In this document: in pieces, positions 10,930 to 60,557 of the stretch | How positions within the stretch are numbered: position 1 is the first letter of the stretch | Layout: each line of letters starts with the position of its first letter | NCBI RefSeq assembly: GCF_012027555.1 | Contig: NZ_SNUQ01000001.1 | Span: forward strand, 496,001 to 560,000 | Direction of reading: 5' to 3' | DNA from: Thermococcus sp. CX2 | GTDB lineage: Archaea; Methanobacteriota_B; Thermococci; Thermococcales; Thermococcaceae | Length of the DNA stretch: 64,000 nucleotides | The notes under the pieces: generated by a model | The model's database searches: none | What the model saw: only the letters and a program-made list of their open reading frames with translations | What the model was told of the DNA's origin: nothing | Program-made: the position numbers and the translations under genes

Positions 10930-11206
10930 AACCCTTTGCTTCGCAAAGCGTTGACGGAAAAATTGCGTGCGAGTCCAAATTGTCAATTCTCAAGCGGGTT
11001 TACTTTCAAATTGGCTTTTTTACAGTGTTCCACTCTCCACAAGGCGTCCAAAGGACGCCAGAATAAAAAATGAAACTATTCTCAAAGGCCTGTTTTTGGA
11101 GTTAAACCCCATATTCATAAGGCATTTCCAGAGTGCACGCTTTAATTCCCGCCCCTCGTGGGAGAAAGGAGCTCTTTTGGTCAAGCTTTTTTTCAAAAGC
11201 TTGATG
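10930..11206 (+). repeat. tRNA-adjacent structured repeat, copy 1
   Basis: A non-coding element of about 277 bp beginning about 5 nt after the tRNA-Arg CCA (first hairpin starts at 10934). It starts with hairpin CTTTGC-TTC-GCAAAG, has an internal hairpin GGCGTCC-AAA-GGACGCC at 11043-11059, and ends with TCAAGCTTTT/AAAAGCTTGA at 11181-11204. It shares flanking words with copy 3 (TTTTACAGTGTT, CACT, AATGAAAC, GAGTTAAA) and the terminal hairpin style with copies 2 and 3. Short open frames across it have no ribosome sites and differ between copies, so it is probably not protein coding. Boundaries are approximate. Confidence 0.65.
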
Positions 11207-11341
11207 CCAAGTGATGTTGGAACTCCGCTCCAACACACGGAGAACTAATTTTCACAGGCATTACTTTTGGTAAACCTCGTTCTGCAGAGGTTGTAGGTCA
11301 GCTTTTTAAGCACCTCCTCGTTTAACCTTGGGGTGGTCAAC

Positions 11342-11812
11342 ATGATGCTTCCAGACTGGAAAATCAGGAAGGAGATTCTAATCGAGCCATTTAACGAGAA
11401 ATCCCTTCAGCCGGCCGGCTACGACTTGAGGGTTGGAAAGGAGGCAATGGTTAACGGAGAGTTCATAGACGTTGAGAAGGAAGGGAAGGTTGTAATCCCC
11501 GCAAAGGGCTATGCCCTGATTCTCACCCTCGAACGCATTAAGCTACCTGACGACGTTATGGGGGACATGAAGCTGAGGAGCAGCTTGGCAAGAGAGGGAC
11601 TAATGGGTTCCTTCGCCTGGGTCGACCCGGGATGGGACGGCAACCTCACCCTTGGAATATTCAACGCCTCAGATGAACCTATCGAGCTTGCCTACGGAGA
11701 AAGGTTCGTTCAGATAGCATTCATCAGGCTTGAAGGCCCGGCAAAGAATCCCTACCGGGGCAGTTATCAGGGAAGCCAGCACCTTGCGCTATCGAAGAGG
11801 AGAAAGAAATGA
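11342..11812 (+). CDS. dCTP deaminase/dUTPase family protein
   Basis: A 156-residue trimeric-fold protein with family blocks SLQPAGYDLRVG near residue 21, MKLRSSLAREGLMGS near 77 and VDPGWDGNLTLGIFN near 95, then NPYRGSYQGS at the end. The family deaminates dCTP to dUTP or hydrolyses dUTP. In E. coli Dcd the catalytic Glu138 lies in the segment aligned with TLGIFN; here that position is Gly. The Asp of VDPGW, used by dUTPases, is kept. Deaminase activity is therefore doubtful and dUTPase activity is an alternative. The ATG at 11342 follows GGGGTGG by 5 nt. Confidence 0.75.
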   Translation: MMLPDWKIRKEILIEPFNEKSLQPAGYDLRVGKEAMVNGEFIDVEKEGKVVIPAKGYALILTLERIKLPDDVMGDMKLRSSLAREGLMGSFAWVDPGWDGNLTLGIFNASDEPIELAYGERFVQIAFIRLEGPAKNPYRGSYQGSQHLALSKRRKK

Positions 11813-12098
11813 GACTATGAAATTTGCCTCGATACCCAACTCCATTCTATTTCTTAGGCCATCCAAGCACGATTAGTGAACAAATGAATTCTTCCCGAGA
11901 ACATTAGACTTAATTAAAAAGTGTACTGGGGAACTATCGCTCCCCAAAGGCACCATCTGGGTAATGCCTTCTATTGGGCACTGTGCTCTCGACCGGTTAT
12001 CTATTTCCCTCAAGGTTCACGAGAAAATCCATCTCGCTAAGTTGGTTGTATCCAAGGGCGTAGTGGCCATCTAATCGACGTAGATGGCTCCGTTTACC
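11813..12098. other. Non-coding gap between dCTP deaminase-like gene and histone
   Basis: No gene was found. The stretch holds an AT-rich TTAATTAAAAAG (about 11909-11920), then a hairpin TGGGGA-N8-TCCCCA at 11927-11946 and GGCA/TGCC repeats just after it. This could be a small transcript or the terminator of the upstream gene; neither is supported by more than these pairings. Confidence 0.3.
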
Positions 12099-12113
12099 GA
12101 AAGGTTTATATAT
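12099..12113 (+). promoter_or_regulatory. BRE/TATA promoter of the histone gene
   Basis: GAAAGG followed by TTTATATAT is a near-consensus BRE plus TATA box, 50-65 nt before the histone ATG at 12164. The strength of the match fits a highly expressed gene. Confidence 0.8.
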
Positions 12114-12163
12114 CTCCAATCGCCTAAAAAAATAGTGAAAAACCCTTCCTGGAGGTGTTGTGA

Positions 12164-12367
12164 ATGGCTGAGTTGCCAATTGCCCCAATTGACAGGTTGA
12201 TTAGGAAGGCCGGTGCCGAGAGGGTTAGCGAGGAGGCCGCTAAGGTTCTCGCTGAGTACCTCGAGGAGTACGCCATCGAGCTTGCCAAGAAGGCCGTCGA
12301 GTACGCCAGGCACGCTGGCAGAAAGACCGTCAAGGCCGAGGACATCAAGCTCGCTATCAAGGCCTGA
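12164..12367 (+). CDS. Archaeal histone
   Basis: A 67-residue histone-fold protein with no tails: [19 protein letters not shown] at the start (tetramer-forming and DNA-contact loop L1), the long central helix, and [16 protein letters not shown] at the end (loop L2 with the RKTV DNA contact). It dimerises and stacks into extended DNA-wrapping filaments. The ATG has GGAGGTG upstream. It is monocistronic with its own strong promoter. Confidence 0.95.
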
Positions 12368-12444
12368 AGGCCTTTCTTTCTCTTCCTTGCTTTTGTCACT
12401 CCCTGAAAGTCAACTTTTTAAACCGCTCTTCTGGAGGTTTCCCC

Positions 12445-13719
12445 ATGCCAGAGATAGCGGTCAGAATGACAAAACGCAACCACAATGCCTTTGTTCATCT
12501 TCTCGGCGCCCTGGAGAGTCAGGGATTTGATCTCGGAGAGCTGTTGGTAACCAAAGACTTCAACGAGATTCTAAAAGCTCGGCCGAAGGTCGTTCTCTAC
12601 TCCTTCTTCACGGAGGAGATATGGGGTGACCTTCCCCGCGAGGTCAAGCTTCTCAAGGAGAGGGGAGCTTTGCTGATAGCCGGCGGCTATCACGCGATAG
12701 CCATGCCCAAACACACCCTAAACCAGCTCGGTTTCGACATAGCTGTCATAGGCGAGGGAGAGGAGGTTCTCTATCAGCTTTTAACGACCCTCAAAAAGAC
12801 GGGCTATAAAATCACAAAGGAGCTTCTCAACATCAGGGGGCTCGCCTTTTACCTGGACGGCGAGTTCACCTTCACGGGCTTCGCTAAAGTGGAGGACTTC
12901 TGGCGTTTTCCGCCCTATCCCGAGTCGCTAAGACTAATCTCCCCCATTGAGATAAGCAGAGGCTGCCCCTTCGGCTGCTACTATTGCCAAACACCCTACA
13001 TCAAGGGACTCCGCATGAGGCACAGGCCCATAGATCAGATAGTGAGATATTCAAGGAGAATGAAGGACATACGCTACATAACTCCCAACGCTTTTGCCTA
13101 CGGCTCACCTGGGGCGATACTTAAGTTAAACAAGCTTGAGGCTTTACTGAAGGCCCTTCAACCGCTCAGAAAAGAGGGACGGCGGCTCTTCTACGGAACG
13201 TTTCCGAGCGAAGTTCGGCCAGAGTTCGTCCTGCCGGAGACCCTCGAGCTCCTCATAGACTACGCCGACAACAGGCGCTTGGCCATAGGCGCCCAGAGCG
13301 GCGACGATGCGATGCTCAAAGCGATGCACAGGATTCATAAGGTCGAACACGTCAAGCGAGCTGTAGAGTATATGCTCGAGTACGGCTTTGAGCCGGTGGT
13401 GGATTTCATAGTTGGTCTTCCGAACGAGAGCGAAGAGAGCCAGAGGAAGAGCATCGAGCTGATGGAGTGGGTTATGAAAAAGGGAGGAAAAGTTCGCGCC
13501 CACTATTTCATGCCCCTGCCGGGGACGCCCTATGCAAGGTGTAAACCTTCCCCCCTGAGTGAGGAGATGAAGCGCTTTTTGGGCAGGATGGCAGCGAAGG
13601 GCAAGATAGAAGGGTCGTGGGGCAAGCAGGTTGAGCTCTCAAGAAAGCTCCAGAGGCTTATAGAGGAGTTCTATGAGGAACCCATGAGCCACACGGTGCC
13701 GGTTAGAAACGTGTGTTAG
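12445..13719 (+). CDS. B12-binding domain radical SAM protein
   Basis: A 424-residue enzyme. The N-terminal 150 residues resemble a cobalamin-binding Rossmann domain (LIAGGYHAIAMPKHTL, then VIGEGEEVL). The radical SAM core follows with the 4Fe-4S cluster motif CPFGCYYC near residues 172-179, and later the SAM-binding strand regions (IGAQSGDD, FEPVVDFIVGLPNE). It resembles the MJ1487-type family of B12/radical SAM proteins, whose substrate is unknown; methyl transfer or modification of RNA or a cofactor are possibilities only. The ribosome site GGAGGT lies 6 nt before the ATG. It is monocistronic. Confidence 0.85.
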   Translation: MPEIAVRMTKRNHNAFVHLLGALESQGFDLGELLVTKDFNEILKARPKVVLYSFFTEEIWGDLPREVKLLKERGALLIAGGYHAIAMPKHTLNQLGFDIAVIGEGEEVLYQLLTTLKKTGYKITKELLNIRGLAFYLDGEFTFTGFAKVEDFWRFPPYPESLRLISPIEISRGCPFGCYYCQTPYIKGLRMRHRPIDQIVRYSRRMKDIRYITPNAFAYGSPGAILKLNKLEALLKALQPLRKEGRRLFYGTFPSEVRPEFVLPETLELLIDYADNRRLAIGAQSGDDAMLKAMHRIHKVEHVKRAVEYMLEYGFEPVVDFIVGLPNESEESQRKSIELMEWVMKKGGKVRAHYFMPLPGTPYARCKPSPLSEEMKRFLGRMAAKGKIEGSWGKQVELSRKLQRLIEEFYEEPMSHTVPVRNVC

Positions 13720-13764
13720 CAATGCTTTTATGGATTCTCTTGAAAAGTTATACCGGTGGATAGC

Positions 13765-14109
13765 ATGAAGCGCATAGACCTGCTGGGCTTCATACTCGGC
13801 TTTTTGATGGTGTTTTATCTGCTCAGCGAGGACGTAGAATGGACGCTCTCGTGGGCCTTTGTCCTCGGGATAGTTTACCTCGCCGCGGTGAAACCAAGGG
13901 TTGGTGGGGCTATCTTCTATGCTCTCTTGGGGTTTCTCGGAGGATTCGCACTCACCCTGATCCTTGGGATGACCTTGCCCCTTCCAGAAACGGTCAGGGA
14001 CATCATGATGGCGGCTTTGCCGCTCACTGGATTGATCCTAGCGCTTTACTACGGCAAGAAAAGCGACTATACCTGGTGGCCCCTTTTCGGCTTCAGGTAC
14101 CGGCTCTAA
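13765..14109 (+). CDS. Small membrane protein, about four helices
   Basis: A 114-residue very hydrophobic protein with about four membrane segments (LLGFILGFLMVFYLL; WALVLGIVYLAAV-like segment; ALLGFLGGFALTLILGMTL; MMAALPLTGLILALYYG) and a C-terminal aromatic tail. I do not recognise the family. The ATG at 13765 follows GGTGGA. It sits 54 nt before the Toprim gene and may be a lone gene, since a TATA-like GCTTATAACC lies between them. Confidence 0.6.
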   Translation: MKRIDLLGFILGFLMVFYLLSEDVEWTLSWAFVLGIVYLAAVKPRVGGAIFYALLGFLGGFALTLILGMTLPLPETVRDIMMAALPLTGLILALYYGKKSDYTWWPLFGFRYRL

Positions 14110-14163
14110 ACCTGCGCCAATAAGCTTATAACCCCATTCTTTCGTTACCAGTACGACGGCAAT

Positions 14164-14562
14164 ATGTACGCCGAAAACTATAAAAGATTCGAGGAGCTTA
14201 TAGACAAACTGCGAGAGTTTGAGGGGGCCATCATAGTTGAGGGCCCGCGAGACGAGGTGGCTTTGAGAAATTTGGGGGTCAGGGCGGAGATAATAAGACT
14301 CTCCCGCCTTCCACTGTCAGAAATTGCGCTCATCGCATCATCGTATGATGAGGTCATGATACTTACGGACTTTGACAGAAAGGGCGAAGAACTCGCAAGG
14401 AAGCTCCTCCAGTATTTGGAGGGGTATTCCTGCAGGGTGGACTCAGAGACGAGAAAGGAGCTCAAGAGGATATCAAAGAAGGACATAAAGGGTATCGAGG
14501 ACCTTTACGGCCTTTACCTTAAAGTCGTCTCCGTTTCTGACCCCCGAATGGAGGGGATTTAA
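14164..14562 (+). CDS. Toprim domain protein (UPF0292)
   Basis: A 132-residue minimal Toprim protein. The conserved acidic residues are visible: the Glu in IIVEGPRDEVAL near residue 24 and the DxD in ILTDFDRKGEE near residue 68. Toprim folds bind Mg2+ and occur in primases, topoisomerases, OLD nucleases and RNase M5. Free-standing archaeal members have no proven role. Its stop overlaps the first ATG of dnaG (TAATG), so the two Toprim proteins are translationally coupled, suggesting a link to primer or nucleic-acid processing. No ribosome site precedes the ATG, so the message may be leaderless. Confidence 0.8.
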   Translation: MYAENYKRFEELIDKLREFEGAIIVEGPRDEVALRNLGVRAEIIRLSRLPLSEIALIASSYDEVMILTDFDRKGEELARKLLQYLEGYSCRVDSETRKELKRISKKDIKGIEDLYGLYLKVVSVSDPRMEGI

Positions 14563-15941
14563 TGAAAAGGAAAAAGACAGTGCTTCACCACATTTTAGCT
14601 GAAAAGCAGAAGTTTGAAAAAAGAAAAGAGGGTGATGGTATGTCAGCCAAAGATGAATTCGGAACGACTAAATACGTAATCTACGCTGAGTTCGAAGCAA
14701 ACGGAATCGTCGAAAGGCCTGACGTTGTTGGTGCTATTTTTGGTCAAACTGAGGGCCTTCTCGGTGATGACCTGGACTTAAGGGAACTCCAGAAGACCGG
14801 CAGGATTGGAAGGATAAGGGTTGAAGTTCACACGAAGGCAGGAAAGACCTACGGAACGATAACCGTCCCATCGAGCCTCGACAGGGTTGAAACAGCCATT
14901 CTAGCAGCTGCCCTTGAGACCATCGACAGGGTCGGCCCGGCCGAGGCCAAAATAAAGGTTCTCCGCATAGAGGACGTTCGCGCCACCAAGAGGAAGTACA
15001 TTATCGAGAGGGCCAAGGAGATCCTCGAGACCCTGATGGAGCAGGAGATCCCGGAGACCCAGGAGCTCACCGAGGAGGTCAAGAAGGCCGTCCGTGCTAA
15101 GGAGCTCATAGAGTACGGCCCGGAGAAGCTTCCTGCCGGACCGCATGTGCCGTTCTCTGACTCAATCATTGTCGTTGAAGGAAGGGCAGATGTGCTCAAC
15201 TTGCTCAAGCACGGCATAAAGAACGCCATAGCCGTCGAGGGAACCTCAGTCCCAGAGACCATCATAAAGCTCAGCAAGGAGCGCATCGTTACCGCCTTTA
15301 CCGACGGCGACCGCGGTGGAGAGCTCATCCTCAAGGAGCTCCTTCAGGTTGCAGATATTGACTACGTCGCCAGGGCACCCGAGGGCAAAGAAGTTGAAGA
15401 GCTCACAAAGAAAGAGATAGTCAAAGCCCTGAGGAGCAAGGTTCCAGCGGAGCAGGTCATAACTGAGATATTCTATAAGGGCAGGAACTTCTACGATGTT
15501 ATAAAGGAGAAAGAAAAGGCCAAAGCCAAGGAGGAAAAGCACAGGGAAGTCAAACCCCCAGCACCAGCTCCAGTACCAAAGCCCCCAGAAAGGCCCGAAC
15601 CCAAGGAGAGGGAGGAGAAGATAGTCAAGCCAATCCAGCAACCCAGACCGAGTGAGCTCGACGAGTTCGGTGAGTTCATCGAGAAGGTCAAGAGCTCCAA
15701 GGAATCGGTGGCGCTCCTCCTGGATAAGGACAAAAACGTCATCGCTGAGATACCCGTCAGAGAGCTCACCAACCAGCTCAAGGAGCGCAAGGACGTTTAC
15801 GCGGTCGTCTTCAACGGCGTCATAACCCAGAGGCTCATCGACACCGTCAGTGAGAGCGGGGTAAAGTACCTCGTCGGAGCGAGGAAGTACAACGTCGTCA
15901 GAAGGCCGGTCAATCTCAAGATAGTGACCTTTGCGGAGTGA
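14562..15941 (+). CDS. dnaG: DNA primase DnaG (archaeal)
   Basis: A bacterial-type primase homologue. The N-terminal region (TTKYVIYAEFEANGIVERPDV) is archaeal specific. The Toprim domain has IIVVEGRADVLNLL and AFTDGDRGGELIL. A Pro/Lys/Glu-rich linker (about residues 310-370) leads to a C-terminal domain. Archaeal DnaG can make short primers and also associates with the exosome through Csl4. Two starts are possible: ATG 14562, overlapping the upstream stop and preceded by GGAGGGG, adds a 26-residue basic leader; ATG 14640, preceded by GAGGGTGAT, starts at MSAKDEFGTT. Both have good ribosome sites. Confidence 0.92.
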   Translation: MKRKKTVLHHILAEKQKFEKRKEGDGMSAKDEFGTTKYVIYAEFEANGIVERPDVVGAIFGQTEGLLGDDLDLRELQKTGRIGRIRVEVHTKAGKTYGTITVPSSLDRVETAILAAALETIDRVGPAEAKIKVLRIEDVRATKRKYIIERAKEILETLMEQEIPETQELTEEVKKAVRAKELIEYGPEKLPAGPHVPFSDSIIVVEGRADVLNLLKHGIKNAIAVEGTSVPETIIKLSKERIVTAFTDGDRGGELILKELLQVADIDYVARAPEGKEVEELTKKEIVKALRSKVPAEQVITEIFYKGRNFYDVIKEKEKAKAKEEKHREVKPPAPAPVPKPPERPEPKEREEKIVKPIQQPRPSELDEFGEFIEKVKSSKESVALLLDKDKNVIAEIPVRELTNQLKERKDVYAVVFNGVITQRLIDTVSESGVKYLVGARKYNVVRRPVNLKIVTFAE

Positions 15942-16009
15942 GCTCCGCACCTTCTTATTTTCCATCACAAAACTTTTAACTTCTTTGGGTAGAATCTTCT
16001 GGTGGTTCT

Positions 16010-16183
16010 ATGGATGAGGGTCTTGAGCTGATGCTCCTGGGAATTTCGTTCATTCTCTTTGGGATACTGATGGGCAATAACGGAGGCATGTTCTTCGGAA
16101 TCCTCGGTTTAGTCCTGGTGTTCCTGGAGATACTCCTACCGCAGAAGAAACGGAAGGAAGAACCACATTGCGAAGGGGAGTAA
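16010..16183 (+). CDS. 57-residue two-helix membrane protein
   Basis: A short gene between dnaG and the glutamyl-tRNA synthetase gene. The protein begins MDEGLELMLLGISFILFG and has two hydrophobic segments separated by a Gly/Asn turn, then a basic-acidic tail. TGGTGG lies 4 nt before the ATG and codon use matches neighbours. I do not recognise a family; the even hydrophobic pattern and ribosome site argue that it is real. Confidence 0.55.
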   Translation: MDEGLELMLLGISFILFGILMGNNGGMFFGILGLVLVFLEILLPQKKRKEEPHCEGE

Positions 16184-16223
16184 CTTTATAACTCCTCCCT
16201 CCCTTCTTCCCCCGGTGGGGAAA

Positions 16224-17945
16224 ATGAACGTGGAAGAGCTGATTATGAAGTACGCGCTCATCAACGCGATTAGCCACAAGGGAAAAGCTAACCCGAAGGC
16301 AGTCATAGGAAAGGTCCTCGGCGAGAACCCCGAGCTAAGGCCTAAGGCGAAGGAAATAATCCCTCTCGTCAACGAGATAGTCGAGCAGGTAAACGGGATG
16401 AGCATCAAGGAGCAGGAGGCTAAGCTGAAGGAGATTTATCCCGAGTTCTTTGAGGCTAAGAAAGAAAAGAAGGAGGAAAAGAAGGGCCTCCCTCCACTCC
16501 CCAAGGCCGAGAAAGGCAAAGTGGTTACCCGCTTCGCCCCAAACCCCGACGGAGCATTCCACCTCGGCAACGCCAGGGCGGCGATACTCAGCCACGAGTA
16601 CGCTCGCATGTACGGTGGAAAGTTTATCCTCCGCTTTGATGACACAGACCCGAAGGTCAAGAGACCCGAACCTAAGTTCTACGACTGGATTATCGAAGAC
16701 CTGAAGTGGCTCGGCTTCCAGATCGACGAAATCCACATTGCCAGCGACAGACTTGAGATTTATTACAAGTACGCGGAGGAGCTCATCAGAATGGGCAAGG
16801 CCTATGTCTGTACCTGCAAGCCAGAGGAGTTCAGAAAGCTCCGCGATGAAGGAAAGGCCTGTCCACACAGGGAAGAGCCGGTAGAGGTTCAGCTCGAACG
16901 CTGGAGGAAAATGCTCAACGGAGAGTATAAAGAGGGAGAAGCTGTCGTTAGAATCAAGACCGACCTCAGCCATCCGAACCCAGCGGTTAGGGACTGGCCA
17001 GCCTTGAGAATAATCGACGATCCAAACCACCCGAGGACGGGCAACAAATACCGTGTCTGGCCGCTCTACAACTTCGCCTCCGCCATAGACGACCACGAGC
17101 TCGGCGTTACACACATCTTCCGCGGCCAGGAGCACGCGGAAAACGAGACGAGGCAGCGCTACGTCTACGACTACTTCGGCTGGGAATACCCAGTTACCGT
17201 CCACCACGGAAGGCTCAGCATAGAGGGAGTGATTCTTAGCAAGTCCAAGACGAGGAAGGGCATCGAGGAAGGAAAATACCTCGGCTGGGACGACCCGAGG
17301 TTAGGAACCATAAGGGCCCTGAAGAGGCGCGGCATAAGACCGGAGGCCATAAGGGAGCTCATCATCGAGGTTGGGTTGAAGAGAAGTGACACAACGGTGA
17401 GCTGGGACAACCTCGCGGCGATAAACAGGAGAATAATCGAACCGATAGCTAACCGCTACTTCTTCGTTGCTGACCCGATACCGATGTACATTGAAGGTTA
17501 CGGGGAGGAGTTCATTGCGGAGATTCCCCTACATCCGGACCACCCCGACAGAGGAGTTAGAAAGCTCAAGTTCGAGCCCGGAAAGCCTGTTTATGTATCA
17601 AAGGACGACATGAACCTGCTCAAGCCTGGCAACTTTGTCCGCCTGAAGGATCTCTTCAACGTGGAGATAGTCGAGGTAAGCGAGGACGGAATTAAGGCCA
17701 GGTTCCACAGCATCGACTACGAGATAGCGAGGGAAAACCGCTGGAGGATGATACACTGGGTAACCGAGGGCAGGCCCTGTGAGGTTCTCGTTCCACAGGG
17801 AGACGAACTCATCACCAGGAAAGGTCTGCTCGAAGCCGATGCTGACGTTAAGGTCGATGACATCGTCCAGTTCGAGCGCTTTGGCTTTGTGAGGATAGAC
17901 GAAGTGACTCCAGAAAAGGTCGTTGCAATATTTGCTCACAAATGA
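16224..17945 (+). CDS. gltX: Glutamyl-tRNA synthetase
   Basis: A 573-residue class I synthetase of the archaeal/eukaryotic type, charging tRNA-Glu with glutamate. A roughly 85-residue N-terminal helical region with a Lys/Glu-rich linker precedes the catalytic core. The HIGH motif appears as HLGN in RFAPNPDGAFHLGNARA near residue 105; the KMSKS loop appears as LSKSKTRKG near 336. The C-terminal half is the beta-barrel anticodon-binding domain of the GlnRS-like type. The ATG at 16224 follows GGTGGGG. A T-rich tract downstream may terminate it before the convergent symporter gene. Confidence 0.95.
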   Translation: MNVEELIMKYALINAISHKGKANPKAVIGKVLGENPELRPKAKEIIPLVNEIVEQVNGMSIKEQEAKLKEIYPEFFEAKKEKKEEKKGLPPLPKAEKGKVVTRFAPNPDGAFHLGNARAAILSHEYARMYGGKFILRFDDTDPKVKRPEPKFYDWIIEDLKWLGFQIDEIHIASDRLEIYYKYAEELIRMGKAYVCTCKPEEFRKLRDEGKACPHREEPVEVQLERWRKMLNGEYKEGEAVVRIKTDLSHPNPAVRDWPALRIIDDPNHPRTGNKYRVWPLYNFASAIDDHELGVTHIFRGQEHAENETRQRYVYDYFGWEYPVTVHHGRLSIEGVILSKSKTRKGIEEGKYLGWDDPRLGTIRALKRRGIRPEAIRELIIEVGLKRSDTTVSWDNLAAINRRIIEPIANRYFFVADPIPMYIEGYGEEFIAEIPLHPDHPDRGVRKLKFEPGKPVYVSKDDMNLLKPGNFVRLKDLFNVEIVEVSEDGIKARFHSIDYEIARENRWRMIHWVTEGRPCEVLVPQGDELITRKGLLEADADVKVDDIVQFERFGFVRIDEVTPEKVVAIFAHK

Positions 17946-26579: not shown

Positions 26580-26654
26580 GGGGTCAGCCAGTGCCGATGT
26601 CATCACGTGCCGCACGGAGCGCGAGTTCAGACCGGTAAACGCTCCTCATCCCCC
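26580..26654 (-). ncRNA. C/D box sRNA (candidate A)
   Basis: On the minus strand from 26654: terminal GGGG, bulge G, box C ATGAGGA (26643-26649), 12-nt guide (26631-26642), box D' CTGA (26627-26630), 20-nt spacer, box C' GTGATGA (26600-26606), 12-nt guide (26588-26599), box D CTGA (26584-26587), then CCCC. GGGG and CCCC pair, and boxes C/D form a kink-turn with a G-U pair. Both guides are exactly 12 nt, as in archaeal 2'-O-methylation guides. The D'-C' spacer is unusually long. rRNA or tRNA targets were not searched. It abuts the tmk stop on the opposite strand. Confidence 0.65.
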
Positions 26655-26700: not shown

Positions 26701-26760
26701 TGGCCGATGACGAGCGTTAGCCACACTGAGCGGTGAGGAAAAGAGGGTTAGCCGAGGCCA
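26701..26760 (+). ncRNA. C/D box sRNA (candidate B)
   Basis: Terminal stem TGGCC/GGCCA encloses box C ATGACGA (26707-26713), a 12-nt guide (26714-26725), box D' CTGA (26726-26729), a 3-nt spacer, box C' GTGAGGA (26733-26739), a second 12-nt guide (26740-26751) and box D CCGA (26752-26755). This is the compact canonical archaeal architecture. The G-A and A-G pairs and the closing G-C of the kink-turn are all present; the usual U-U pair is C-C because both boxes carry C. Targets were not identified. Confidence 0.75.
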
Positions 26761-43692: not shown

Positions 43693-43893
43693 ACCCTTTT
43701 TACTCTCTTTTCCGAGCTTCAAATCTGTCTGTTTTTCTGTTAGGCGGTTCAATGCGTTTCTCGGTTTGGATTATAGGTTCTTGGAGCTTTTCGTCCTTAG
43801 CACAGTTCTATGTAAGCCCTGATTTCCCTGGAACGTTCGTTCCACAAGAGTCCTAATAAATATGTAACAAAAAACTTACACGTGGGGATGAAG

Positions 43894-44202
43894 ATGGCGG
43901 AGGCTGTAGAAAAGTCTGGACTCGTCCACTATGGTGAGGTTGTTGAGGAGTTTGAAGTCCCGGTCAGGGGGTTCCTCTTCAAGGGTGGAAAGCTTGAGGG
44001 TGTCTATATCAAAGGCGGCATAATTCCCGTGACGGTAGAGCTGCCAAAGGACATTAACGAAGCTGTATTAAGGGGAAAGGCACAGAAAAAGCTCCTCATA
44101 AGGGAAGTCAGGTACAAAGGCAAAGGAACAATTGAGGTCTACATCCAGGACGGCTATAGGGTATGGCCAATTCACGAGGTGGATTTTGAAGAGCCAAGCT
44201 GA
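43894..44202 (+). CDS. Hypothetical 102-residue protein
   Basis: A 102-residue beta-rich protein (MAEAVEKSGLVHYGEVVEEF at the start; GYRVWPIHEVDFEEPS at the end). I do not recognise it. Of three possible starts, ATG 43894 is 4 nt after GGGGAT. A TATA-like AATAAATATG lies about 35 nt upstream. It ends 7 nt before the 3' end of tRNA-Thr on the other strand. Confidence 0.6.
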   Translation: MAEAVEKSGLVHYGEVVEEFEVPVRGFLFKGGKLEGVYIKGGIIPVTVELPKDINEAVLRGKAQKKLLIREVRYKGKGTIEVYIQDGYRVWPIHEVDFEEPS

Positions 44203-44208: not shown

Positions 44209-44285
44209 TGGAGCCCCGGGCGGGATTTGAACCCGCGACCGGCGGATTACAAGTCCGCCGCCCCGCCAGGCTAGGCTACCGGGGC
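44209..44285 (-). tRNA. tRNA-Thr (TGT)
   Basis: On the minus strand: acceptor GCCCCGG with CCGGGGC, anticodon stem loop GGCGGA-CTTGTAA-TCCGCC giving TGT, T arm GCGGGTTCGAATCCCGC, discriminator T and encoded CCA. A TATA-like AACTTTATATTCC precedes it on the minus strand. No structured repeat follows its 3' end, unlike the plus-strand tRNA units. Confidence 0.95.
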
Positions 44286-44606: not shown

Positions 44607-44682
44607 GCCGCCGTAGCTTAGACGGTAGAGCGCTGGACTGTTAATCCAGTGGTCCCCGGTTCGAATCCGGGCGGCGGCGCCA
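44607..44682 (+). tRNA. tRNA-Asn (GTT)
   Basis: Acceptor GCCGCCG with CGGCGGC, anticodon loop CTGTTAA giving GTT, T arm CCCGGTTCGAATCCGGG, discriminator G, encoded CCA. A TTTATAAATC box lies about 30 nt upstream. The next tRNA starts 5 nt after it, so both are one transcript. Confidence 0.95.
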
Positions 44683-44687: not shown

Positions 44688-44765
44688 GGGCCCGTAGCTC
44701 AGCCTGGTCAGAGCGCGCGGCTCATAACCGCGTGGTCGGGGGTTCAAAGCCCCCCGGGCCCACCA
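44688..44765 (+). tRNA. tRNA with CAT anticodon (elongator Met or Ile2)
   Basis: Acceptor GGGCCCG with CGGGCCC, anticodon loop CTCATAA giving CAT, T arm GGGGGTTCAAAGCCCCC, discriminator A, encoded CCA. It lacks the GGG/CCC anticodon stem of initiator tRNA, so it is elongator methionine or the agmatidine-modified isoleucine tRNA. Sequence alone did not let me separate these. Confidence 0.9.
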
Positions 44766-44772
44766 GTTCTAT

Positions 44773-45010
44773 AAACTTCACCTCGCGAAATTTGATCAAG
44801 GTTCGTATGTCCCTTCTAAAACTCGCTGTTTTAGGGTTCCTCATTGTCAACTGCAGTGTTATGGGGTTTTACTTCCCAGACGCTCTTCGAGCACCAAAAA
44901 ATTAGGAAACTTCTTCAAGAGTGCTGACTCTACTCGCGAAGACATACGAACTCATTCTGGCTTTTTTGAAGAAAGTTACTCTCTGATCAAACTTTGCCCA
45001 GCAAAGTTTG
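44773..45010 (+). repeat. tRNA-adjacent structured repeat, copy 2
   Basis: A 238-bp non-coding element beginning 8 nt after the tRNA CCA. It runs from a degenerate hairpin near 44773 with TTTGATCAAGG, through GTTCGTATGTC at 44801-44811, to the exact reverse complement GACATACGAAC at 44941-44951, and ends with TTGATCAAACTTTGC-type hairpin AAACTTTGC/GCAAAGTTT at 45010. It matches copy 3 in layout but differs in base sequence in ways that keep pairing. No coding potential was seen. Confidence 0.7.
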
Positions 45011-45365
45011 TTTACGGCAAAGGTTGCCGCGGAAAAAGCCTCAAAATCGCCGAACATCCGAATCTACGTTCAATACAGGCGTCTTTTTTGTCCGAATTCT
45101 GACGGATTTTTGGCCCATATATCTGTTAAATCTTGCAAACATTCCGGTTCGGTTCTGACATTATGACAATATGCATGGAGTTTATATGTCATAATTACAT
45201 CCAATTTGCGAGAACTTCTGATTTTCTGCCAGGTTCGAATTCCGAACCCACGCTGAGACTTTTTAAGCTTTTCTCAGTATTGGTGAACATACTAGTACAC
45301 CAAAGCCGATTTTCGGCGCGAAAAACGGTTCTTAAACTTTTCGTAAGCGATATAAACCCCTACGG
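45011..45365. other. Long non-coding region upstream of rpoH
   Basis: No gene was found. An inverted repeat TTATGACA-N18-TGTCATAA occurs at 45161-45194 and could be a protein-binding site or stem. A second AT-rich TATA-like stretch (TTCTTAAACTTTTC, near 45330) precedes the main promoter. The rest is AT-rich with no recognised feature. Confidence 0.4.
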
Positions 45366-54196: not shown

Positions 54197-54201
54197 AGGA
54201 C

Positions 54202-54849
54202 ATGGCCAAGCCGCTTACCGAGAGGTTCTATCAGCCTAAGGAGCTCAAGGTCATGGGCAGGTGGAGCGTTGAGGACGTCGTCGTCAACGACCCATCGCTC
54301 AGGCCCTACATAAACCTCGACGCAAGAATCCTCCCGCACAGCCACGGAAGGCACGCCAAGAAGCCCTTCGGCAAGGCCCAGGTTCACATCGTCGAGAGGC
54401 TCATCAACAAGGTCATGCGCAGCGGTGCCAGCAGCCACAAGGTCGGCGGCCACTTCATGAGGAGAGAGCACCGCTCCCTCATGAGCAAGAAGATGAAGGC
54501 CTACGAGGTCGTCAAGGAGGCCTTCATGATAATCGAGCGCAGGACCAAGCAGAACCCGATTCAGGTTCTCATCAGGGCCATAGAGAACTCCGCTCCGAGA
54601 GAGGACACCACCACCATAGCCTTCGGTGGAATCAGGTACCACATGGCCGTTGACGTTTCACCGCTCAGGAGGCTCGACATAGCCCTCAAGAACATCGCCC
54701 TCGGTGCGAGCGCTAAGTGCTACCGCAACAAGACCAGCTACGCCCAGGCCCTTGCCGAGGAGATAATCGCTGCGGCCAACAAGGACCCGAAGAGCTTCGC
54801 CTACAGCAAGAAGGAAGAGATCGAGAGGATTGCCCAGTCCTCAAGGTGA
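54202..54849 (+). CDS. rps7: Ribosomal protein uS7
   Basis: A 215-residue primary rRNA-binding protein of the 30S head. Blocks are [19 protein letters not shown] and [20 protein letters not shown] near residues 130-150, then [25 protein letters not shown] precedes the ATG at 54202. In many archaea the operon continues with EF1A and S10; here it ends, with a T-rich tract (54861-54878) before an unrelated GH57 gene. Confidence 0.95.
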
Positions 54850-55021
54850 GGGCTGGCGGGTTTCTTCTTCCCTTCTTATTGTTGGCTAAAAATTATCAAG
54901 CCAGTTTTTCATAGCCGTCTGGCCATATTCTGGCAGGCATCAAGTTTCTAAATTTCCCCATCGCCCGCTGTCCATGTGGCAAGGTTTATTTAGCTCGGAG
55001 TGTATCCCTTTCGGTGATATC

Positions 55022-57529
55022 ATGAGGACAGCATCTCTGCTGATCCTGGCAATTCTATTCCTAAGTCTTATCCCATCCGCGGCTTCAACTGTAGCGACAT
55101 CCGGGCGTGATGGCGTTGGCATAAACCCAGCAGGATTTCGCTTAGACTCCTGGGAGCTCGAGGGAGTGAACGTTATCGGTGCCGGCGAGAGAGGTGCACT
55201 CGGGCAGAGCTATCCCCTCTGGGACTGGCTGCTGAGCGAGCCATGGCCAGGAAACCTCGCAACTGGGGAGTATGAGATTTCTGAGAATGAAGGTATCATT
55301 AAAGGCACCTTACAGGACGGTTCTTTGCTCGTGGAGAAGAGGTTTCAAGTTCTCGACTCCAACAGGGCTCTCTTAGACGTGACGTTCACCAACACTGGAA
55401 ATTCCACATTCAAAAGTCTCGTGAGCTGGGACTCCTTTGACCTCGGCTATGCCATGGCCTGGGCAGGTTACCTTGGAAAGCCCGGCGGTGAGCAGGAGAT
55501 ATGGATGGAAAACGGGCAACTTCACATCGAGGAGAAGAACTGGGTGAGACTCGGAGCAAAGGTGGAGGCCTTTGGCCTGGTGGACTTTGACGAGGACCTG
55601 ATAGCGCTTGTTTTTCCCAGTGAGGAGAGTGTAGCTCTCTGGCTTGAAACCGGAAGCTGGGGGGTTGAAACGAGGGCAGAGTTAGCTCCCCTAATTCTCA
55701 AACCCGGAGAGAGCAAGACTTACGTATTCGGGGTGTTCGTGGGGCACATCGGGGATCTTAAGGAAGCCTACCCAGAAGTTTACGAGAAGCTAACTCCATT
55801 CATCGAGAAGGAACGCTTTGAGATAACCTTCGAACTCCCCACTTTCCCCATAGTCGGCGAGACTACCAACATCACGGTGGCCATCACGCCAAGGGAGCCC
55901 CTCAACAAGACCGGCAACCTGCTGATCTCCATTGCATGCGGTGAAAACTCATTCGAGGAGGCCTACCCCGTTGACTTGAGAGGTGAAAGCGGGGTAAGCA
56001 TCCAGGTGAAGGCCGAGAAGAGCTGCAGGATAAAGGCCGAACTTGAACTAGAGGGAGAAATCATCGCAAGCGCAAGCACAACTATGAGGGCCTTCGAGAA
56101 GGGAAAGCCCCTCAAGGTAGTCTTCGTCTGGCACCATCATCAGAGCCCCGGGGTCTGGCCCAACGGGACGCTGCACGGTCCCTGGACTCTCGTGCACACC
56201 TACGAGGACGAACTCGAACCCTACTATGACGGTGGCGCCTACTACTTCCACGCATGGATTCTCCAGAAGTACCCGGAGATTAAGATGACCTACCACCTTT
56301 CCCCCTCCCTCCTCTGGCAGTGGAATCTCACCAACACCGGCTGGTGCCAGAGCTATCCTTCCTATCAGTGCTTCACGCCAGAGAGTCCCGAGGCCGAAAA
56401 AGTCAGGGAAGCGATGAGATTGTACAGAGACTTATACGAGAGGGGCCAAATAGAGATACTCTCCAGCTACTTTGCCCATCCGATAAGCGGCTACATCGCG
56501 GAACGCTACGGCTGGTTCGATATACTGGATTATGAGCTTTCTCTGGGAAAGAGGACGACGGAGGAAATTATGGGCGTAAACGCGAGCGGTATGTGGCTCC
56601 CGGAGATGGCCTTCAGCCCGAAGCTCGTTCCCCTTCTCGAGAGGCACGGGGTCAGGTACACCGTCCTCGACGACCGCTGCCACCTGAATGTCCTCTACCC
56701 GTACTCGCCCTACCACGTCTACGGAATTGAAAACTCCTCGATCAGGGTTCTGTTCAGGGATCATACCATAAGCGACGACTTCGCTTTCAACAACAACTTC
56801 AGGAGCGAAGACGATGCGAGAGAAAAGGCGAGGAAGATCGTGGAGGAGATCCTGAACGTTAGAAACGTCAACCCCAGCGCCGAAGTGGTAACGATAGCGG
56901 CAGACGGCGAGAACTGGATAATATTCTCCCCCAATCCCGGCTTAACTGCAAAGTACTTCGAGTACCTCCTTCAGTACCTCCAGGAGGCTCAGGAGAAGGG
57001 ACTGATCAAGACTGTGACCTTCGGGGAAGCGGTTAACGAGCTCCAGCCCTACAGGAATATCACGCCTCTAACCACTTCCTGGCTCTGTTCGTGGGACAAA
57101 TGGACGAAGGAGAAGGCCTCGGTGCAGAGTCCGATGTGGGAGCGCGACGAAGAGGTGTACAACCTCACGCGCGAGTACCTTGAGAATTGTGGGAGGGATG
57201 AGATCTATAAAAAGGCCCTCTACGGGCTCGCCCAAGCCCTAGACAGCGACTTCTACTGGGCGGAGTTCTCGTATCCACCCCACGTCTATGCGTGGCTCAA
57301 CTGGACGGAAAACCTGGTGAAGGACGGCTTGAAAGGGTGCGGCTCCACGAACGTCACTCCAACGACAATGACCACAACAACGTCTGCAGCCACCCTTCAC
57401 GACGCCACCTCGGCCACCGAAACCCACTCGACATCCGAAACGGGAGAGAGCAACGGGTTCTCGATATGTGGTGTTGGGGCATTATCTGTCCTTTCCCTGC
57501 TCATCCTCCTTCTGAGAAAGAAGGAGTGA
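55022..57529 (+). CDS. Secreted, cell-wall-anchored GH57 glycoside hydrolase
   Basis: An 835-residue extracellular enzyme. A signal peptide (SLLILAILFLSLIPSAAS) is followed by a roughly 200-residue beta-rich domain resembling the glucodextranase-like N domain, a second beta domain to about residue 360, then the GH57 barrel from VVFVWHHHQSPGVW. The nucleophile Glu is in GMWLPEMAFSP near residue 525 and the acid Asp in TIAADGENWI near 630. The C-terminus has a Thr/Ser-rich linker, then SICGVGALSVLSLLILLLRKK, a variant of the CGP-CTERM sorting tail. The enzyme resembles the amylopullulanase branch, acting on alpha-glucans. It could feed maltodextrin to malP. The ATG at 55022 follows GGTGAT. Confidence 0.88.
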   Translation: MRTASLLILAILFLSLIPSAASTVATSGRDGVGINPAGFRLDSWELEGVNVIGAGERGALGQSYPLWDWLLSEPWPGNLATGEYEISENEGIIKGTLQDGSLLVEKRFQVLDSNRALLDVTFTNTGNSTFKSLVSWDSFDLGYAMAWAGYLGKPGGEQEIWMENGQLHIEEKNWVRLGAKVEAFGLVDFDEDLIALVFPSEESVALWLETGSWGVETRAELAPLILKPGESKTYVFGVFVGHIGDLKEAYPEVYEKLTPFIEKERFEITFELPTFPIVGETTNITVAITPREPLNKTGNLLISIACGENSFEEAYPVDLRGESGVSIQVKAEKSCRIKAELELEGEIIASASTTMRAFEKGKPLKVVFVWHHHQSPGVWPNGTLHGPWTLVHTYEDELEPYYDGGAYYFHAWILQKYPEIKMTYHLSPSLLWQWNLTNTGWCQSYPSYQCFTPESPEAEKVREAMRLYRDLYERGQIEILSSYFAHPISGYIAERYGWFDILDYELSLGKRTTEEIMGVNASGMWLPEMAFSPKLVPLLERHGVRYTVLDDRCHLNVLYPYSPYHVYGIENSSIRVLFRDHTISDDFAFNNNFRSEDDAREKARKIVEEILNVRNVNPSAEVVTIAADGENWIIFSPNPGLTAKYFEYLLQYLQEAQEKGLIKTVTFGEAVNELQPYRNITPLTTSWLCSWDKWTKEKASVQSPMWERDEEVYNLTREYLENCGRDEIYKKALYGLAQALDSDFYWAEFSYPPHVYAWLNWTENLVKDGLKGCGSTNVTPTTMTTTTSAATLHDATSATETHSTSETGESNGFSICGVGALSVLSLLILLLRKKE

Positions 57530-57540
57530 ACCCCAACTTT

Positions 57541-58662
57541 TCATTTTATCAAACTCTTCCCCACCATGTTTCCGGGCTTTTCTAAGCCAAAGAAGTCCAG
57601 AACCGTCGGCGCTATGTCCATGAGGCTCGCGTTTTCAAGCTCAACGTTCTCAAATCCCCACAGTATGAGTGGGACTTTAACAACCGGCTCGTTCATCGAG
57701 CCGTGCATGCCCCTTACCCAGTGGCTTGCACCCTTAATCCCCCTGCACATTCTGTGGGAGCAGAACCAGTAGCCGGGCTTGGCCGAGACTATCAGCTCGC
57801 CGCTCAGGGGCGTGTCGAGGTGAGGAAGCTCATCGCGGAAAAAGACTTCTTTAACCCCCGGCGCTCTCCGGAGAACCTCAAAGGCATCCTCGGTCTGGTT
57901 CGGGTCTCTAAGATAAACGTGAACCCCACCGCCAGAGGAGACGCGGAGCGTCTCGATGCCGTGCTTCCTGAGGTAGGTTTTCAGGTTCACCCAGGTGTGA
58001 ACCTCCTCCTGTCCGTGGTCGGCGAAGATTATGAAGGCGTACTCGTCTTTCATGCGCTCCCAGAGGGTTCCAACGGCAGTATCGACGATCTCGACAGCTC
58101 TCAAAGCCCCCTCGCTCAGCGGCCCGAAATCGTGGCCCATGCCGTCTATCGAGGCGAAGTGGACGAGGAGCAGATCAGGTTTGCATTCCTCGTATAGGTA
58201 GATGGCCGAGTTCATGACCCAGACGTCCTTCCTCCAGTCGCGACCGTGCTGCCTATACATCTTGTCGCTTGCAAAGAAGGGGGGAAAGATCCTAACGTCT
58301 GTCCCGCTGAATGGCGGCATGGTGTAGCCGCTCACCGCGGCCGTTCTGACACCCCTCGGACGGAGCAGATCAACGATGGTCGGGGCCTTTATGACCCGGT
58401 GGGGGTTGAAGGCCACCTCATAGTCGTAGAAGTTCACCTTCCTATCAGCCAGCCTATCGTAGTAGCCGTTTTCGACGACGCCGTGATCCTTGGGCCATAC
58501 CCCCGTCATCACGCTGGTGTGGACTAAGTCCGTTAACGTTGGAAAGATTGAATCGACAACGGCAAGCTCCCCCGATTCAGCCAGCTCGCCCAGGAAGGGC
58601 ATGTGCTTGAGGTTGTAGACCCCGTTGCCATCAATGCTTACGAGAGCGAGCTTTTTTCTCAT
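57541..58662 (-). CDS. Type I phosphodiesterase/nucleotide pyrophosphatase family protein
   Basis: A 373-residue alkaline phosphatase superfamily member. Metal sites are LVSIDGNGVYNLKHMPFL at the N-terminus and a nucleophile Thr in TLTDLVHTSVMTG near residue 45; FASIDGMGHDFGP near 180 and FIIFADHGQEEVHTW near 225 give the metal Asp and His residues. It probably cleaves phosphodiesters or pyrophosphates of nucleotides or phosphoglycerol. There is no signal peptide. The ATG at 58662 follows GGAGG by 7 nt. Confidence 0.85.
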   Translation of the reverse strand: MRKKLALVSIDGNGVYNLKHMPFLGELAESGELAVVDSIFPTLTDLVHTSVMTGVWPKDHGVVENGYYDRLADRKVNFYDYEVAFNPHRVIKAPTIVDLLRPRGVRTAAVSGYTMPPFSGTDVRIFPPFFASDKMYRQHGRDWRKDVWVMNSAIYLYEECKPDLLLVHFASIDGMGHDFGPLSEGALRAVEIVDTAVGTLWERMKDEYAFIIFADHGQEEVHTWVNLKTYLRKHGIETLRVSSGGGVHVYLRDPNQTEDAFEVLRRAPGVKEVFFRDELPHLDTPLSGELIVSAKPGYWFCSHRMCRGIKGASHWVRGMHGSMNEPVVKVPLILWGFENVELENASLMDIAPTVLDFFGLEKPGNMVGKSLIK

Positions 58663-58736
58663 TTCACTACCTCCAAGTGTCAGCCTGACGTGCACTCATC
58701 ACCTCTCAGTGGGATGGAGTGGTCATCATCCACCCG

Positions 58737-59987
58737 CTATTCGGTGAGGCGGTATAAATTCTTTCCGAGCCATTCGTCAAGGGTTTTCTGCTTCGCGAGG
58801 TTCCCGAGGACGTAACTTCTGGCCACGTAGCGGTCGAAGGGATGCTCGAGGCGACGCTTTATTGCCTCCAGGGCTTCATTGAGCGTCGAGAAGCGCCCAA
58901 CCGGGTTCTCCATAGCCTTCTTAACGCCCAGCCTTATCTGCCACACTCCCACGGGGGCATAGTACTTGGGAGTGACTTCGCGGAAAACAACAATCCTTGC
59001 CTGCCTCCTCCTCGCTCTCAGAGCTTCAAGAACGCTCAGACGGGCTGCGTGGTAGGCTCCGGCCGTTTCCTTGACGTACCCTTTTCTTCCGCGGAAGTCC
59101 TCGTAGTCATGGATAACACTCGGCTCCTCACTTCCGAAGAGCGAGCCCTTGAGCCAGACCTCAAGCAGCTCGAAGGCGTAGCTCTCTGGCATAAGGAGAA
59201 CCGCATAGCGGTTGCCGAGGAATTCGTAGAAGTAAACCTCGTAATCGTTTATCTCTGGATAACTGAGGATTTCTCTCCGGAGGTTGTTCCCTATGGTGTC
59301 CTGGACAGCCGTTATGCTCCACCTCGTTGGCACGAGCTTCTTATCAAGCCCGAGCAATCCAGCAGAGAGGAGCCTTATAATATAGTACTCGTCGAAGCCC
59401 CAGTTGTAGAGGCGCATTATTGCCTGCTCGGCCTTGAGCTCGTCGCTCACCACGTAGTCTGTTCTTCGCGGTATTTTAGGATTCTCCGTGAGCTCGAAGT
59501 CGAGAAGCTCGGCCTTTGGACCTATCGGTGGGGCGAACTCGCTTGGAAGGACTTTGAGAACGGGCTTTCTCTTCAGGAGTATCTCGCTGTCAACTGGCTT
59601 TATCGACATGGCCAGCTCCTGAACCTCGCCGAGTATTCTTCCGCTCCTCCTTACGTGGACGTCTGCCTTTGTCTCGCCCATAACCAATAGCGAGCGGTAG
59701 TAGAGGATGTCCTTTATCGTCTTGTTCTCCCACTTGAGGGGGTTATCTAGATGGCTCGTGTTTCCCTCAATCGGCGGCACGAGGGGACCGATTCTAACCT
59801 TGGGATAGCCGTACTCACCGACGAAGATGCTTGGCGGGGAGGAGCCGAAGAGGTGGCGCTTGTTGAGCCTTTCCTCGACTCTCTTAGCTACCCTGAACCT
59901 TTCAAGAATCGGGCAGGTTGGCCTGCCGCAGAGGAGCTTTCTGCCCTTGCAGACGGCACAGAGCCTGGAGTTGAAGAGCTGGGTCAT
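58737..59987 (-). CDS. nreA: DNA repair protein NreA
   Basis: A 416-residue protein of the archaeal Nre family (DUF650/651). The N-terminal zinc-type cluster is CAVCKGRKLLCGRPTCP near residue 10, followed by PSIFVGEYGYPKVRIGPL. Halophile homologues protect against DNA crosslinks and interact with PCNA. The C-terminus ends QKTLDEWLGKNLYRLTE, a good PCNA-interacting peptide that parallels QxGLxSWL of Thermococcales DNA polymerase B. The ATG at 59987 has no ribosome site; TTTATGG-like sequence upstream fits a short leader. Confidence 0.88.
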   Translation of the reverse strand: MTQLFNSRLCAVCKGRKLLCGRPTCPILERFRVAKRVEERLNKRHLFGSSPPSIFVGEYGYPKVRIGPLVPPIEGNTSHLDNPLKWENKTIKDILYYRSLLVMGETKADVHVRRSGRILGEVQELAMSIKPVDSEILLKRKPVLKVLPSEFAPPIGPKAELLDFELTENPKIPRRTDYVVSDELKAEQAIMRLYNWGFDEYYIIRLLSAGLLGLDKKLVPTRWSITAVQDTIGNNLRREILSYPEINDYEVYFYEFLGNRYAVLLMPESYAFELLEVWLKGSLFGSEEPSVIHDYEDFRGRKGYVKETAGAYHAARLSVLEALRARRRQARIVVFREVTPKYYAPVGVWQIRLGVKKAMENPVGRFSTLNEALEAIKRRLEHPFDRYVARSYVLGNLAKQKTLDEWLGKNLYRLTE

Positions 59988-60097
59988 CGGGGATACTTAC
60001 TCCAGAAGGTATTTATGGTTTGCCAATGCTGGCATCTCGAGTATCTTCCAAAAAACTTAAAAACCCTCTCCAGCTCATATAACTCGGGCATTGGAGT

Positions 60098-60183
60098 GCC
60101 GCGGTAGCCTAGCCTGGTAGGGCGCCGGCCTGCTAAGCCGGTGGGCGTGGCCCACAGGGGTTCAAATCCCCTCCGCGGCGCCA
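60098..60183 (+). tRNA. tRNA-Ser (GCT)
   Basis: Acceptor GCCGCGG with CCGCGGC, anticodon loop CTGCTAA giving GCT, a long variable arm GGGCGTGGCCC typical of serine tRNA, T arm GGGGTTCAAATCCCC, discriminator G, encoded CCA. A CTTAAAAACC promoter lies about 40 nt upstream. tRNA-Cys follows after 20 nt. Confidence 0.95.
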
Positions 60184-60203
60184 AATCTTTCTCTGGGTCG
60201 AAT

Positions 60204-60278
60204 GCCGGGATAGCCTAGAGGTGAGGCGGTGGACTGCAGATCCACTTTACGGGGGTTCGAATCCCCCTCCCGGCTCCA
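60204..60278 (+). tRNA. tRNA-Cys (GCA)
   Basis: Acceptor GCCGGGA with TCCCGGC, anticodon loop CTGCAGA giving GCA, T arm GGGGGTTCGAATCCCCC, discriminator T, encoded CCA. It is the second tRNA of the Ser-Cys unit. A structured repeat begins 9 nt after the CCA. Confidence 0.95.
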
Positions 60279-60286
60279 CATTTTAA

Positions 60287-60557
60287 CAAACTTCGCCTTC
60301 GCGAAGTTTGATCAAGGTTTGCATGTCATCTCTAAAACTGGCTGGTTTCTGGGTAGATTTACTCCCTAATGGCAGTTTTACAGTGTTTCACTGTGAATTT
60401 AATGCCCTTTGGGCATTAAAGGGTGAATGAAACCCGTTTCATAGACTTGCTTTTGAGTTAAATCTTCCTTTGATTTGGATTCTTGAGAGGACATGCAAAC
60501 TCATTCAGCCAGATGAGATTTACTCTTTGATCAACCTTTGCTTGCGCAAAGGTTGAT
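60287..60557 (+). repeat. tRNA-adjacent structured repeat, copy 3
   Basis: A 271-bp non-coding element. The left hairpin is CAAACTTCGC-GCGAAGTTTG-type (60287-60310), then TGATCAAGG, GTTTGCATGTC at 60317-60327, an internal hairpin TTTAATGCCC-TTT-GGGCATTAAA at 60398-60420, the matching arm GACATGCAAAC at 60490-60500, and the right hairpin CAACCTTTGC/GCAAAGGTTG ending at 60557. It aligns with copy 2 at both ends and with copy 1 in the middle (TTTTACAGTGTT...AATGAAAC). Not protein coding. Confidence 0.75.

Follow-up and report, generated by a model that had tools for sequence, protein, structure and literature searches.

What occupies the space immediately behind tRNA genes in Thermococcus? The question is raised by a 64,000-nt stretch of the Thermococcus sp. 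CX2 genome (contig NZ_SNUQ01000001.1, positions 496,001–560,000; hereafter the window, with coordinates counted from its first letter), in which three structured repeats each follow the encoded CCA of a tRNA gene. We think it probable, if well short of certain, that these repeats are copies of a non-autonomous, transposase-free mobile palindromic element, which inserts mostly in the sense orientation a few bases past the 3′ ends of genes for small stable RNAs, tRNAs foremost. This reading is supported directly by a multi-copy family, its adjacency to RNA genes, the mirror-image hairpin ends, the tandem stacking of copies, the lack of an ORF filling any window copy, the lack of a target duplication in 12 tested copies and the different subfamilies held by one tRNA site in different species. 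If it is true, a hitherto unnamed mobile family takes up the space behind a large share of the tRNA genes in a model archaeal genus, with consequences for tRNA 3′-end maturation, for annotation and for rearrangement at these genes.

Three structured repeats of one family

We characterized the repeats with R1, a model of the family trained on 14 copies from the genome of the window (G000; 1.80 Mb in 25 contigs). Copy 1 (10928–11206, + strand; 217.5 bits) follows tRNA-Arg(TCG) (10850–10925, +; ARAGORN and Rfam), copy 2 (44770–45013, +; 166.6 bits) follows tRNA-Met(CAT) (44688–44765, +; ARAGORN), and copy 3 (60285–60558, +; 227.9 bits) follows tRNA-Cys(GCA) (60204–60278, +; ARAGORN); these scores are high by construction, since the three copies were in the training set. 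The original prediction had placed the element starts 5–9 nt after the CCA; the elements themselves were confirmed, but R1 puts their starts at 2, 4 and 6 nt. BLASTN with copy 3 as the query matched copy 2 (84% over 61 nt, E 7.5e-11), and a three-way alignment of the window copies contained common blocks with a mean column identity of 69%. Thus, the grouping into one family has support independent of R1. Copy 1 was not recovered by BLASTN with copy 3 alone. Copy 1, with the left end CAACCCTTTGC..GCAAAGCGTTGACGGAAA, belongs to a subfamily that we call S1, and copies 2 and 3 to a second, S2.

Each window copy has, in some form, a left-end hairpin, a long-range pairing, an inner hairpin and a right-end hairpin, and an inverted-repeat search bore out the predicted end hairpins of all three copies as well as the TGATCAA at both ends of copies 2 and 3. 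In copy 1, the left-end hairpin (10929–10953, +) was also matched by R2, a model of the left end (C1:506925–506970); the inner hairpin, GGCGTCC/GGACGCC (11043–11059, +), shows compensated changes, and the right-end hairpin is formed by TCAAGCTTTT and AAAAGCTTGA (11181–11204, +). In copy 2, the long-range stem (44801–44951, +) pairs GTTCGTATGTC (44801–44811) with GACATACGAAC (44941–44951), with 11 of 11 positions complementary, and the right-end hairpin (44988–45010, +) comes after TGATCAA. Copy 3 combines a left-end hairpin and TTTGATCAA (60282–60315, +; an inverted repeat of 87%) with a long-range stem between 60317–60337 and 60480–60500 (+; 86%) and a right-end hairpin (60530–60557, +) complementary at 12 of 12 positions. 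The element as a whole is an imperfect palindrome, and R1 also matches its reverse strand, with 80 bits for copy 3. The fold of copy 3 has a z-score of −10.36 as DNA, and those of copies 2 and 1 have z-scores of −4.1 and −3.2, both as RNA.

The window copies are 244–279 bp long, and no open reading frame (ORF) of at least 40 aa fills any of them; the longest, of 93 aa in copy 1, overruns the end of the element. None of 4227 Rfam families scored above its gathering score on the three copies. At E ≤1 within 60270–60640, CRISPR-DR63 (20.4 bits, threshold 37) and P26 (17.9 bits, threshold 36) matched copy 3, both of which we read as chance; the remaining matches fell on the C/D RNA sR47 (60560–60617, −; Rfam), a convergent gene whose 3′ end abuts the right end of the copy. 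Copy 3 is therefore bounded on both sides by the 3′ end of a small-RNA gene, tRNA-Cys on one and sR47 on the other.

A copy stands behind each of the three plus-strand tRNA units of the window, as had been predicted; two of these units include a further tRNA upstream: tRNA-Asn (44607–44682, +) ahead of tRNA-Met(CAT) and tRNA-Ser (60098–60183, +) ahead of tRNA-Cys (tRNA search). The minus-strand tRNA-Thr (44209–44285, −; tRNA search) has no element behind it, and a convergent ORF of 106 aa (43882–44202) ends 7 nt away.

Genome-wide placement behind tRNA genes

We reduced the 69 R1 rows of G000 by hand to 36 element places, retaining the best strand and removing overlapping and reverse-strand rows; two weak short rows, one of them behind tRNA-Met, were omitted. 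Eighteen of the 36 places lie −5 to 40 nt behind a tRNA and 16 of these are on the strand of the tRNA, the two opposite-strand places being weak R1 matches (42.3 and 30.6 bits). Random placement with the same strand required gave a mean of 0.02 adjacencies and a maximum of 2 in 20,000 trials, versus the 16 observed. Nine further places belong to arrays behind these tRNA-adjacent copies. Genome-wide matches mostly away from tRNA genes, or copies failing to align as one family, would have spoken against the original prediction; 27 of the 36 places lie at tRNAs or in arrays behind them, and the copies do align as one family. In two other genomes, whose rows were cut by hand in the same way and to whose tRNA sets no intron-containing tRNAs were added, 14 of 35 places (G060) and 7 of 27 (G041) lie directly behind tRNAs, 14 of 14 and 6 of 7 being on the tRNA strand. 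The share in G041 is lower than that in G000; several more places there lie about 40–290 nt behind tRNAs, with other repeats in between.

Of the nine other places in G000, a sequence profile puts two at 112 and 173 nt behind a tRNA, the flank starting with a left-end motif. Two follow the C/D RNA sR36 and one follows a C/D-RNA-like stretch (by eye). Two come after one protein gene, presumably cbf5, the first copy starting with its stop codon; one follows the stop codon of another protein gene, which we take to be eIF6; and one lies between divergent genes (by eye). R2 adds three places, one of which is a left end directly behind the H/ACA RNA Pab160, seen in G060 too.

Tandem copies abut within a few bases, and smaller palindromic repeats are nested within the end hairpins (by eye). 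The spacer between the CCA and the left end is variable, 0–12 nt, and often A-terminal (by eye). We considered an array polarity in which the freshest copy stands beside the tRNA, as in CRISPR, and R1 scores gave it no support: the proximal copy scores higher at C3:50675, C3:15101, C1:454102, C2:391110 and G060:1419104 and lower at C3:185139, in the sR36 pair and in four other G060 arrays.

A rival explanation is a host-encoded trailer, a structured RNA that is transcribed with the tRNA and aids its 3′ processing or termination, or that yields a small RNA of its own. The orientation counts in all three genomes fit this explanation, as do the copies behind other small RNAs. On the other hand, among the 46 tRNAs of G000 (44 found by the tRNA search plus two intron-containing ones, Trp and Met, that we added), only 18 have a copy directly behind; of the 28 without a direct R1 copy, some precede another tRNA and others have partial copies behind them.

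Turnover of copies between species

By R1, 45 of 61 genomes of the same taxonomic family contain the element; within the genus it is present in 27 of the 28 genomes sampled, G000 included, with at least 22 rows each, and none of nine genomes of a second genus, g2, was positive. By R2, left ends occur in 78 genomes among the 115 of the phylum, and 75 of the 78 fall within the family to which Thermococcus belongs. G022, which is negative by R1, has 12 R2 matches, with left ends behind two tRNAs that we read, and R2 found no left ends in G086 and G090, of the same genus. The matches in G061, G068 and G072, from other families of the phylum (E 4e-5 to 6e-3), look like chance, with no tRNA and no clear motif at the sites.

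The interval between tRNA-Cys and its downstream gene had a match in 59 of the 61 genomes. Thirty loci were fetched, of which 14 were read and sorted by eye; the other 16 either had tRNA-Cys on the other strand (15) or lacked it (one). The first element was an S2 left end in six loci and an S1 left end in four; two had a GC-rich repeat and then an S1-like end, one had a decayed S2 start, and one had no recognizable start. At a second intergenic site, which ends in TTTTTGCAA, the resident is S2 in G060, and S1-type left ends occupy it in G000, G022 and three metagenome-assembled genomes (MAGs). Because the same place holds different subfamilies in different species, these comparisons point to a turnover of copies that would proceed by recurrent insertion or replacement and not by simple descent. 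Different subfamilies behind the same tRNA, together with the tRNAs free of copies, speak against a general host role as a trailer. The suggestion that the element targets tRNA ends is supported by the tRNA adjacency in three genomes, the tandem arrays and the different subfamilies at one tRNA-Cys, but it was too narrow, as copies also follow sR36 and two protein stop codons, and a left end follows Pab160.

We compared the two flanks of 12 G000 copies. The longest word shared by both averaged 4.92 nt, versus 4.89 nt for re-paired flanks, and 89 of 300 re-pairings equalled or exceeded the observed value; no target duplication was found in these copies. This result bears on the idea that the repeats are leftover attachment sites, or other remains, of plasmids or viruses that integrate at tRNA genes. 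tRNA genes are common integration targets, and at one locus (L144; G060:C1:313500–315200) an element lies behind an apparent 3′ half of tRNA-Gly, as though an integrase attachment site had carried it along (by eye). The lack of duplication across the 12 copies argues otherwise, as does the defined unit with two matched ends; copy 3 was also unmatched in phage and plasmid records, and two exact left-end patterns gave 0 matches in a viral set. We regard remnants as very improbable.

Conservation of the structure

In 60 distinct high-scoring copies, compensated pairs occur in the long-range stem (for example, GC 33/AU 23 and CG 40/UA 16) and in the inner hairpin (UA 30/CG 26), in an alignment of related copies that was fitted to the model, which favours pairs. 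Judging from these alignments, the structure of the element is conserved, as RNA or as DNA. G-U pairs exceed A-C pairs 12 to 3 over six pairs of the long stem (p 0.035), an excess that would favour a transcribed trailer. Over all modelled pairs the ratio is 48:27 (p 0.02), but it falls to 38:23 (p 0.07) without one weak pair, and in the inner hairpin it is 12:13; these ratios weaken that case. On balance, we judge a host-encoded trailer to be an improbable account of the family.

The left-end core in other archaea

Two other archaeal phyla also carry the left-end core, which has the form N-AACCC-stem-GCGTT-N′-ACGGAAA, for the most part within tRNA genes or next to them. The left-end hairpin of copy 1 is this core, which is also present in tRNA and rRNA introns of other archaea (exact pattern and R3, a core model trained on seven Thermococcus and five outside sequences). 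In a collection of 84,980 species, the exact S1 left-end pattern occurs in 14 stretches, 12 of which come from Thermococcus or Thermococcaceae MAGs; the two others, L191 and L193, lie in or beside tRNA-Leu. R3 matches 28 of 389 genomes of the L193 phylum (the L193 record is named Thermoplasmatota) and 11 of 19 genomes, 0.3–1.3 Mb in size, of the L191 phylum, with up to 32 rows in one genome; these counts include the genomes behind L193 and L191, hence training sequences.

We examined 38 outside loci, which are the best R3 matches in the two phyla minus two training places (L283 also contributed to the R3 training, and L280 and L286 represent a single region). An Rfam tRNA match encloses the motif in nine loci (one antisense) and lies at most 110 nt from it in 11 (four antisense; about 1% expected). 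In eleven more we recognized, by eye, 23S rRNA, one half of a tRNA or its 3′ end (L277 was assigned from 26 nt only), and seven have no RNA-gene link. Of the 19 loci tested with ARAGORN, 14 were assigned an intron-containing tRNA that spans the motif; 13 of these are distinct, two of which are R3 training sequences, and nine of the 13 introns are 45–60 nt long, three are 158–222 nt, and one, of 29 nt, is doubtful. At L252 (G371), two short insertions with the same core interrupt one 23S rRNA gene at positions 885 and 1501, and at L266 and L284 the motif lies 0–4 nt behind the tRNA 3′ end, as in Thermococcus. The first base of the core pairs with the base after GCGTT as CG in 28 rows, GC in 10, UA in five, AU in one and UG in one, with one A-C, among 46 model-fitted rows that include repeats.

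Some of these occurrences may be assembly products, as MAG contigs may be chimeric and L270 resembles a snap-back. Since many separate genomes carry the core, the evidence argues against an artefact overall. Intron transposition was reportedly described by Fujishima in 2010, and tRNA intron gain through a mobile element has been proposed (PMC3293823). A wider reading, to which we give somewhat less than an even chance, is that an archaea-wide mobile element homes to RNA genes via the core, residing as a spliced intron in an anticodon or rRNA loop or as a palindromic tail behind a tRNA or guide RNA, and that it directly gives rise to tRNA and rRNA introns in archaea. If so, a core common to the tails and to mobile introns would make intron gain in archaeal tRNA and rRNA directly testable.

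A possible mode of insertion

How might such an element move? In the favoured reading of a mobile palindromic repeat, an enzyme acting in trans would recognize the hairpin ends as single strands and join the element to DNA that opens at the foot of a tRNA gene or of another folded RNA gene, the left-end core being the probable recognition module, common to mobile mini-introns of other archaea. Such an enzyme acting on opened RNA-gene DNA would explain the target choice and the absence of duplication, as well as the end-to-end stacking and the small repeats nested in the end hairpins.

Several points weigh against mobility of this kind. No transposase or autonomous copy was found, although beyond an unscreened ORF listing no systematic search was aimed at one, and no clean empty site with both flanks was found. 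Some copies are far from any recognizable RNA gene, and both the lengths (mostly 240–310 bp) and the subfamilies are very variable. In addition, in seven of nine outside loci tested, the left flank recurs to the right of the motif over 16–98 nt with at most 15% mismatch (present at L236, L240, L244, L255, L265, L268 and L272; absent at L263 and L280), unlike in the Thermococcus copies, which have no such repeat. L265 and L268, which lie away from tRNAs, have imperfect direct copies of the left flank of about 40 and 98 nt, a hint of long target duplications in those lineages.

The flank repeats are also relevant to mobility through RNA, in which an intron-like RNA freed by the tRNA splicing endonuclease and ligase would be joined with other RNAs and then converted back to DNA. 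At L236, L240 and L255, the close repeat of the left flank starts at or a few bases from base 1 of the tRNA, in favour of this route, whereas at L244 it extends about 30 nt further upstream. The presence of the core within introns at the tRNA anticodon loop and in 23S rRNA is in keeping with an RNA intermediate, as are the choice of RNA genes as targets and the mostly sense orientation; the antisense placements at L263, L272, L281, L287 and L289 are not, and the Thermococcus copies are not introns. We consider the RNA route unlikely, though less so than the trailer.

Comparison with known elements

A mobile palindromic repeat of this kind invites comparison with described systems. Casposons target tRNA 3′ ends and duplicate about 14 bp of the target; a second tRNA 3′ end on the distal side, as a casposon or miniature casposon would leave, was absent from the 12 copies tested. 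Like miniature inverted-repeat transposable elements, the window copies are short, lack a transposase gene and have inverted hairpin ends, but the target duplication frequent in that class was absent from those 12 copies too. The likeness to bulge-helix-bulge introns lies in the core, which appears from sequence to form the 5′ part of tRNA introns, and of those in one 23S rRNA, in the two other phyla; the difference is that the Thermococcus copies that we read lie behind the CCA and not inside the tRNA gene.

The closest named kinds are the small mobile repeats (SMRs) and the PATEs of Haloquadratum, neither of which fits all the defining features. As described in PMC3119063, the SMRs of Haloquadratum walsbyi are about 80–110 bp long, target other mobile elements, and have terminal inverted repeats but no transposase, no target duplication and no known mover; near-terminal palindromes are the preferred targets of SMR-A. 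By that description, our elements resemble SMRs in being short, with inverted ends, without duplication or a transposase gene and with a marked target preference, and differ in their greater length and in their RNA-gene targets.

PATEs are palindrome-associated derivatives of IS200/IS605, and the Thermococcus elements could be of this kind, moved by a Y1 transposase. Near-terminal palindromes at both ends, the absence of target duplication and a fixed orientation to the target are shared, as far as that source describes them. PATEs, however, are defined there as being without terminal inverted repeats (PMC3119063), whereas the Thermococcus elements have mirror-image inverted ends. This description sets the two apart, and we find a PATE origin hard to credit, though less so than remnants of integrative elements.

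Closer in phylogeny, sRk48/sRk52 of Pyrococcus abyssi, a 130-nt RNA with six copies there and one in T. kodakarensis, is likewise described as belonging to repeated structured intergenic regions in Thermococcales (PMC3124441). We found no description of the Thermococcus elements in the literature searched, and the accessible portions of PMC3124441, PMC4247193, PMC5316973, PMC6640164, PMC6125680, PMC3293823, PMC12558985 and PMC3718332 do not describe them.

Further observations near the elements

No R1 match lies near the C/D RNAs sR12 (26583–26651, −), sR34 (26703–26757, +) and sR7 (58678–58733, −) of the window. At several tRNAs without an element in G000 (C1:89373+, C1:161936−, C2:307558−, C3:49499− and C4:24956+), a small convergent gene, perhaps encoding a ribbon-helix-helix protein, seemingly ends near the CCA, an impression gained from the DNA. 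A GC-rich repeat (GGGGGCTCCGCCCCC and similar) stands between the tRNA CCA and the element in several genomes (L131, L133, L135, L152 and L299). Right behind copy 1, at 11215–11245, we noticed by eye a small repeat, TGTTGGA..TCCAACACACGGAGAAC; TGTTGGA-like sequences also occur, again by eye, within end hairpins of other copies, in the regions C1:355869 (L123) and C1:696944 (L121).

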